NCBI GenBank assembly: GCA_023150875.1
Contig: JAKLKC010000029.1
Location: 1 to 64,000, forward strand
Reading direction: 5' to 3'
DNA: 64,000 nt
Origin: Myxococcota bacterium
Lineage (GTDB): Bacteria; Myxococcota_A; UBA796; UBA9615; JAKLKC01
A program made the translations under genes and the position numbers. Below, in pieces: positions 8,499 to 10,415 of the stretch. Position 1 is the first letter of the stretch, and the number at the start of each line of letters is the position of its first letter. Below the pieces are notes generated by a model, which made no database searches, was not told the DNA's origin, and worked only from the letters and a program-made list of their open reading frames with translations.

Positions 8499-8574
8499 TG
8501 GAGCCGAGAAGGGGACTCGAACCCCTGACCTGCTGATTACGAATCAGCTGCTCTACCGACTGAGCTACCTCGGC
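8499..8574 (-). tRNA. tRNA-Thr (CGT)
   Basis: On the minus strand the sequence folds into a full cloverleaf: acceptor GCCGAGG/TCTCGGC (last pair G-U), D-arm GCTC/GAGC, anticodon stem GCTGA/TCAGC with loop TTCGTAA (anticodon CGT, complement of 8539-8541), and T-arm AGGGG/CCCCT with TTCGAGT. Discriminator T and CCA are encoded. CGT reads ACG threonine codons. Confidence 0.95.
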
Positions 8575-9967: not shown

Positions 9968-10056
9968 GCCCGGGTGGCGAAACGGCAGACGCAGGGGACT
10001 TAAAATCCCCCGCTGGCACCAACCCCAGCATGCGGGTTCGAGTCCCGCCCCGGGCA
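9968..10056 (+). tRNA. tRNA-Leu (TAA)
   Basis: A class II tRNA with acceptor GCCCGGG/CCCGGGC, anticodon stem GGGGA/TCCCC with loop CTTAAAA (anticodon TAA at 10001-10003), a long variable arm and T-stem GCGGG/CCCGC around TTCGAGT. Discriminator A is present but CCA is not encoded (ACTC follows). It starts 12 bp after the ATPase gene and is probably on the same transcript, since no separate promoter is visible. Its 3' end recurs twice downstream. Confidence 0.95.
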
Positions 10057-10080
10057 CTCGCATCCCCATCGGGCCTTAGT

Positions 10081-10209
10081 GGCGGGACTCGAACGCCGGC
10101 GTGGCGCGGCCAGTGGCCGAAAAGGCTCCTGGAAGGAGCCGTCAGCGACGCCGGCCGGCCCTGCAGGCCGCGTCCGTGAAGGACGCGGCCGGAAGGGTCG
10201 AGTCCCGCC
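10081..10209 (+). ncRNA. Candidate structured RNA, unit A
   Basis: Predicted helices by eye. The closing stem is GGCGGGACTCGA (10081-10092) with TCGAGTCCCGCC (10198-10209), 12 bp. Inside it, P1 pairs 10095-10105 with 10145-10155 (one mismatch) and encloses P2, CGGCC-AGT-GGCCG (10107-10119), and P3, GGCTCC-TGGAA-GGAGCC (10124-10140). P4 is GGCCGCGTCC with GGACGCGGCC around GTGAA (10167-10190). The 10081-10094 strand could instead pair with the T-arm of the preceding tRNA-Leu (10036-10049). Expression is not shown. Confidence 0.4.
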
Positions 10210-10240
10210 CCGGGCACTCGCTTCCTGGCCAGGCCGCATT

Positions 10241-10369
10241 GGCGGGCCTCGAACGCCGGCGTGGCGCAGCCAGTGGCTGAAAAGGCTCCAGGAAGGAGCC
10301 GTCAGCCACGCCGGCCGGCCCTGCAGGCCGCGTCCGTGATGGACGCGGGCGGAAGGGTCGAGTCCCGCC
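10241..10369 (+). ncRNA. Candidate structured RNA, unit B
   Basis: This is the same fold 160 bp downstream of unit A. P2 reads CAGCC-AGT-GGCTG: relative to unit A, both sides of one pair changed (G10108-C10118 to A10268-T10278), a compensatory change that keeps the stem. P1 is here a perfect 11 bp (GCCGGCGTGGC/GCCACGCCGGC), while P3 differs only in its loop. The closing stem and P4 carry one mismatch each. Differences falling in loops or as pair-preserving changes favour selection on RNA or cruciform structure. Confidence 0.4.
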
Positions 10370-10415
10370 CCGGGCACCACGGAGACCGCGATCCGCCTCG
10401 GGATGGACCGGGGGA

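Follow-up and report, generated by a model that had tools for sequence, protein, structure and literature searches.

The analysed window, a 64,000-nucleotide stretch of the genome of a Myxococcota bacterium, carries a tRNA-Leu(TAA) gene followed by two tandem units of 160 bp (10035-10194 and 10195-10354), which are 89% identical to each other. In agreement with the initial annotation, which had described a tRNA 3' end repeated at a 160-bp period, the 23-nt 3' end of tRNA-Leu was found three times as a direct repeat, at 10035, 10195 and 10355, with spacings of 160 and 160 bp. The inverted repeat of the T-arm that had been described between these copies was likewise found: in unit A it is complementary to the T-arm at 10036-10049 at all 14 positions. 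Each unit comprises, in this order, a short left segment, the T-arm complement, a three-way junction (P1, P2 and P3), a GC hairpin (P4), the motif CCGGAAGGG and the tRNA 3' end from the T-loop onwards. The positions of these features are given in Table 1.

Table 1. Features of the tRNA-Leu(TAA) locus, in positions of the window
Feature	Position	Strand
tRNA-Leu(TAA), host gene; annotated end without encoded CCA	9968..10057	+
S1: tRNA 3' end, T-loop C56 to C74, now completes the tRNA	10039..10057	+
Short left segment of unit A	10058..10080	+
Inverted T-arm A, complement of the T-arm of the tRNA at 14/14 positions	10081..10094	+
Covariance-model match of unit A, 131 bits with model R1	10085..10205	+
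Three-way junction A: P1 10095-10105/10145-10155, P2 10107-10119, P3 10124-10140	10095..10155	+
P4 hairpin A and conserved right end CCGGAAGGG	10159..10197	+
S2: second copy of the tRNA 3' end	10199..10217	+
Inverted T-arm B, one mismatch	10241..10254	+
Covariance-model match of unit B, 130 bits with model R1	10245..10365	+
Three-way junction B: P1 10255-10265/10305-10315 (perfect), P2 10267-10279, P3 10284-10300	10255..10315	+
P4 hairpin B and right end	10319..10357	+
S3: third copy of the tRNA 3' end, CCA encoded	10359..10379	+

An encoded CCA is present in the last 3'-end copy and absent both from the middle copy and from tRNA-Leu(TAA) itself, which is the sole tRNA without an encoded CCA among the tRNAs listed for this genome. 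This is most simply explained by an insertion of the units at the T-loop, through which a new end was brought in or duplicated. S3 would then probably be where the gene originally ended, now shifted by 320 bp. Elsewhere in the window, contig JABWCM010000157.1 of MAG_56 was found to be 99.8-100% identical to it from tRNA-Thr rightwards, and the match ends exactly at the 3' end of tRNA-Thr(CGT) on the minus strand (position 8499 of the window, 5088 of the MAG_56 stretch). This break corresponds either to a strain-specific island at tRNA-Thr or to a misassembly. The same contig (genome G188) was rejected as an independent homologue, being 100% identical to the window over 2.6 kb.

The three-way junction that had been proposed for each unit was recovered in both cores, with z values of -4.4 and -4.7 relative to dinucleotide shuffles. 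The alignment also confirmed the compensatory exchange between the units, a G-C pair (10108/10118 in unit A) replaced by A-T (10268/10278 in unit B), together with the loop changes and the perfect P1 of unit B; P1 of unit A contains one G.G. Every sequence feature given in the initial annotation was thereby confirmed. The covariance-model search of the genome and its relatives that had been suggested was run and yielded homologues with covariation far above background. Both sides had changed in 19 of 44 pairs among 7 units, in 26 of 44 among 14 units, and in 41 of 43 among 96 units, the last corresponding to 788 cells and reached in none of 500 shuffles (0/500). The covariation score of the 96 units was 0.457, compared with 0.113 in the shuffles and 0.03-0.08 in slid controls. 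Fitting of the 96-unit alignment to the model favours the structure, but the first alignment of 7 units, which was unfitted, gave the same answer. These results support selection on the fold of the unit, as compensatory change greatly exceeds the background. Of the outcomes that the initial annotation had named as refuting, neither a lack of other copies or homologues nor covariation at background level was observed. In P1 and P4, tandem G.A pairs are interspersed in alternation with Watson-Crick pairs, and on the sense strand of the tRNA, G.T cells outnumber A.C cells (75 vs 49).

The suggestion that such units might be dispersed elsewhere also proved correct. With the covariance model, the core was detected in the same genome at six loci behind tRNAs or tRNA 3' ends and at four other sites. 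Besides the locus in the window, it lies behind tRNA-His, tRNA-Glu, tRNA-Arg(CCG), tRNA-Ala(CGC) and a tRNA-Sec-like end, and each of these copies carries the 3' end of its own tRNA. An expanded version, found by sequence in addition to these loci, is present at tRNA-Leu(GAG), again with its own 3' end; this element of about 370 bp is split over two contigs (L005/L092 at the end of C172, and L089 at the end of C110). Many copies lie at contig ends, which indicates that assemblies break there. The tRNA-His copy (L003, 1416-1490) has two or three additional hairpins between the inverted T-arm and the core, and a weak relative with a GGTTCCGCGGAGCGGAACG left hairpin was observed away from any tRNA (L110, 1491-1610, in G000:C165). 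The four copies located off tRNAs are 90-97% alike. One of them, a type 2 copy (L107, 1414-1530, in G000:C91), is an exact, stop-free, in-frame insert of 117 nt, or 39 codons, that interrupts a gene for a group 4 glycosyltransferase at GACGGGTT^CCGCC. The score of the GT-4 domain is 12 bits better without the insert than with it (68.2 vs 56.1 bits). The target, GGGTT^C, resembles the T-loop sequence GGTT^CGA.

In total, we catalogued 96 units in at least 26 genomes of the deltaproteobacterial type; the genome counts are lower bounds, as few candidates per genome were scored. The covariance-model search detected the core in two genomes of the same order as the window's, a pattern scan found it in named deltaproteobacterial MAGs, and a further covariance-model search around one such MAG found it in 3 of 42 genomes of its class and 20 of 395 of its phylum. 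The distribution is sporadic (20/395 and 3/71 genomes). The core pattern had no match in viral contigs, and among the DNA matches in relatives, the five that were read (L008, L011, L020, L028 and L032) proved to be look-alikes with no relation to the unit. With regard to position, 73 of the 96 units lie on the 3' side of a same-strand tRNA at a distance of no more than 400 nt, representing about 24 tRNA kinds or anticodons, with Ser, Leu, Glu and Sec as frequent hosts. Three further units lie behind tmRNA, and most of the remaining ones are found at contig ends or behind tRNA fragments. In genome G448, covered by contig stretches amounting to 1.57 Mb, all ten matches, at six loci, are situated behind a tRNA, a tRNA 3' half or tmRNA. 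Long-variable-arm tRNAs (Ser, Leu, Sec and Tyr) account for about half of the hosts of the 96 catalogued units. At three loci (L141, L151 and L206), only a 3' fragment of a tRNA or tmRNA and a terminator precede the units, as would be seen if a genomic island had come between the gene and its units. A second conserved module (~TGCTTCGCCCTTTGGGCTACGCACGGCACGCCAT) was observed after the CCA or the 3'-end copy at five loci (L137, L141, L143, L144 and L149).

The ends of the units follow the tRNA behind which they lie. The 3'-end copy matches its own tRNA over a mean of 18.1 nt, compared with 6.2 nt for other tRNAs, and the corresponding values for the inverted arm are 11.2 and 6.5 nt (0/10,000 permutations), although a few inverted arms, such as that of L202, match mainly universal bases of the T-arm. 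In 35 of 53 clear cases, the 3'-end copy starts 21 nt before the end of the tRNA, at C56 of the T-loop. The right junction is therefore fixed in the T-loop before C56, at GGTT^CGANTCC. The left junction is variable: at L099, L142, L193, L194, L209 and L229, the 3'-end copies are identical for 0 to 61 nt beyond CCA without the next unit being reached, and at L099 and L142 the duplication extends up to the terminator region. Part of the long identities of 3'-end copies is explained by truncated second units (L102, L103, L172, L180 and L182). The 3'-end copy is often intact (21/21) although its flanks have fully diverged. In contrast to the ends, the cores are shared between hosts: within one genome, cores at different tRNAs are up to 0.89-0.95 identical (for instance Gln/Pro, Ser/Leu and Arg/Lys), and the Arg copy of one genome is 0.94 identical to the Gln copy of another. 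As the ends match the local tRNA while near-identical cores occur at different tRNAs, it appears that the core travels and that the ends come from the new host tRNA.

Given this anatomy, which points to insertion as the origin of the loci, we consider it probable that the units in the window are two tandem copies of a short, non-coding and non-autonomous mobile structured element. Its core of about 115 bp folds, as RNA or as a single strand, into a conserved closing helix, a three-way junction and a hairpin. The element would insert into the T-loop of tRNA and tmRNA genes, with its right junction before C56, and would thereby duplicate the tRNA 3' end and, in some cases, its trailer and terminator as well. 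In this way the tRNA would be preserved, and the new copy would derive its ends from the target. The target sequence would thus be copied during movement. Target-primed copying yields a fixed 3' junction, a variable 5' junction and a duplication of the target, and such copying from RNA, as in SINEs, would best fit the junction pattern. The RNA might be made together with the tRNA or through read-through, and a CsrA-type protein could bind to its hairpins with GGA loops, a weaker part of the proposal; expression with the tRNA is not assured, since many units lie behind a terminator-like hairpin. A bolder and rather doubtful version is that of a bacterial SINE-like retroelement, in which the end of the RNA, the universal T-arm sequence CGANUCC, would pair with the nicked antisense strand of any tRNA gene and prime copying, each insertion thereby rebuilding the tRNA and gaining the local 3' end; the RNA may also titrate CsrA. 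No autonomous partner element was found, nor was a reverse-transcriptase motif in 1.57 Mb (49%) of genome G448.

A mobile element that targets tRNA 3' ends fits the anatomy better than a cis-regulator of one tRNA. The initial annotation had proposed that the flank might control the folding or processing of tRNA-Leu, and this proposal was not supported: at about half of the loci a longer trailer, usually with a terminator-like hairpin, precedes the unit, four copies lie off tRNAs, and cores are exchanged among tRNAs that are not related. The inverted T-arm could pair with the T-arm of the tRNA, the possibility on which that proposal was based, but it could equally well pair with the downstream 3'-end copy.

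Other kinds of mobility were also considered. Direct repeats of the tRNA 3' end flank the unit and reconstitute the tRNA, much as they do where islands occupy tRNA genes. This would be expected of a miniature integrative element that a tyrosine integrase mobilises in trans at the T-loop, with a 3'-end att site of its own in every copy, and L141, L151 and L206 do look like island junctions. However, a fixed att site would not give near-identical cores at different tRNAs with the local tRNA sequence at both ends, and the left limit of the repeat is variable. Moreover, the unit has neither an integrase gene nor a long reading frame: when the loci were tested as islands or satellites, the direct repeat was present and integrase or cargo genes between the repeats were absent, the units (roughly 140-200 bp in length, and some 370 bp at Leu(GAG)) being too short to encode an integrase. 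We therefore regard this origin as improbable. A single-stranded-DNA element of the IS200/IS605 or REP type, in which a hairpin GTT-X...X'-AAC pairs target and internal guide, would account for the type 2 copies, which read GGGTT^TGGCGAAGCCAAACG..core..GGGTT^, and arm and target are able to pair in the copies that were read. Nevertheless, Y1 transposases were found in just 3 of 7 host genomes (the other four include two drafts of 73-79% completeness), none of the 16 Y1 loci searched adjoins a unit-like structure, and IS200/IS605- and REP-type elements are not known to duplicate 20-80 bp of their target, which makes this mechanism quite improbable. Tandem copies and truncated second units do exist, as a plain tandem duplication of the tRNA 3' flank with neither mobility nor function would predict, but the presence of the same core behind unrelated tRNAs, the covariation and the off-tRNA copies refute this view, to which we give hardly any credence. 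Integron attC sites were rejected on the order of the boxes, as the units read GTT ... AAC and attC reads RYYYAAC ... GTTRRRY. tRNA-primed reverse transcription from a retroviral-type PBS was also rejected, since the arm complements the T-arm rather than CCA in the units read.

The remaining alternative concerns function. Pure mobility leaves the intact 3'-end copies amid diverged flanks unexplained, and their preservation would be understandable if the units were resident regulatory RNAs of tRNA operons, transcribed along with the tRNA, released by tRNA-processing enzymes that cleave at the copies ending in CCA, and acting in trans, for example by CsrA binding through the P3 and P4 loops. A regulatory-RNA role has reportedly been proposed for rtT of E. 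coli. GGA is found in 92 of 98 P3 loops, 79 of which read A(N)GGA (CATGGATG, CAGGATG, CAGGACG), and in 66 of 98 P4 loops, 48 of them A(N)GGA, on stems that otherwise vary freely. GGA hairpin loops of this kind are known CsrA/RsmE binding sites, and genome G448, one of the hosts, encodes a CsrA homologue with 53% identity. The P3 loop sequences hint at CsrA binding. The alternation of tandem G.A with Watson-Crick pairs and the excess of G.T over A.C cells on the tRNA sense strand are also consistent with a functional RNA. In the window, the loops are TGGAA and AGGAA in P3 and GTGAA and GTGAT in P4, so the case for CsrA is weaker there, and the window's lineage often has GTGA or TTGA loops without GGA. 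Further points against a resident regulator are the trailers of 46-102 nt, usually with a terminator-like hairpin, ahead of about half of the units, the sporadic distribution among genomes and the copy within a protein gene. On balance, we find this explanation rather unlikely. Our verdict is that the family is real, structured, mobile, widespread and tied to the 3' ends of tRNA and tmRNA genes.

Since the 1970s, the 178-bp repeats at tyrT of E. coli have stood alone as a curiosity. The present units constitute an independent and much larger family that shares their layout, with strong covariation, dispersed copies and many tRNA hosts, which makes origin, spread and function testable by comparison. 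The family shows how a tiny element can reside in essential tRNA genes and leave them intact, and it provides an example of an element whose ends come from the target. Mobile sponges with a regulatory role would be present in tRNA operons if CsrA is bound by the GGA loops. In an Rfam search of the window and its homologues, only tRNA reached the gathering score. A description of the family was not found in the open-licence literature, which yielded RtT reports only, and it has apparently not been described before.

The closest likeness is with the RtT units at tyrT of E. coli (rtT, RF00391). As read directly in K-12, these are also tandem units behind a tRNA that end in a copy of the tRNA 3' end (ATCCTTCCCCCACCACCA), with an inverted T-arm copy (GGGGAAGGAT) closing each unit, the same layout as in the window. 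A tandem GA motif has been reported for RtT RNA (PMC7657543), and RtT members adjoining Asn and Lys tRNAs have been reported in Pasteurellaceae (PMC4986893). However, the RF00391 model had no match in the window or its homologues and four RtT matches in E. coli, and model R2 had no significant match in E. coli (best 8.7 bits, E = 0.4). The window family differs in its core, in a T-loop junction two or three bases away, in its occurrence in other phyla, and in its association with about 24 tRNA kinds and tmRNA as well as its copies off tRNAs. The units are therefore RtT-like in layout and fall outside RF00391. CsrB/RsmZ sponge RNAs likewise present hairpins with C-A(N)GGAN-G loops; in contrast, the window family has a pair of these hairpins in each unit, arranged about a three-way junction, is tied to tRNA genes and has degenerate loops in the window's lineage. 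Rickettsia palindromic elements are likewise short structured mobile repeats found in frame in a protein gene, whereas the window family is tied to tRNA 3' ends and captures target sequence. Finally, SINEs are described as structured and non-coding elements with a fixed 3' junction, a variable 5' junction and a target duplication, features that they share with the window family, which is bacterial and inserted in the T-loop.
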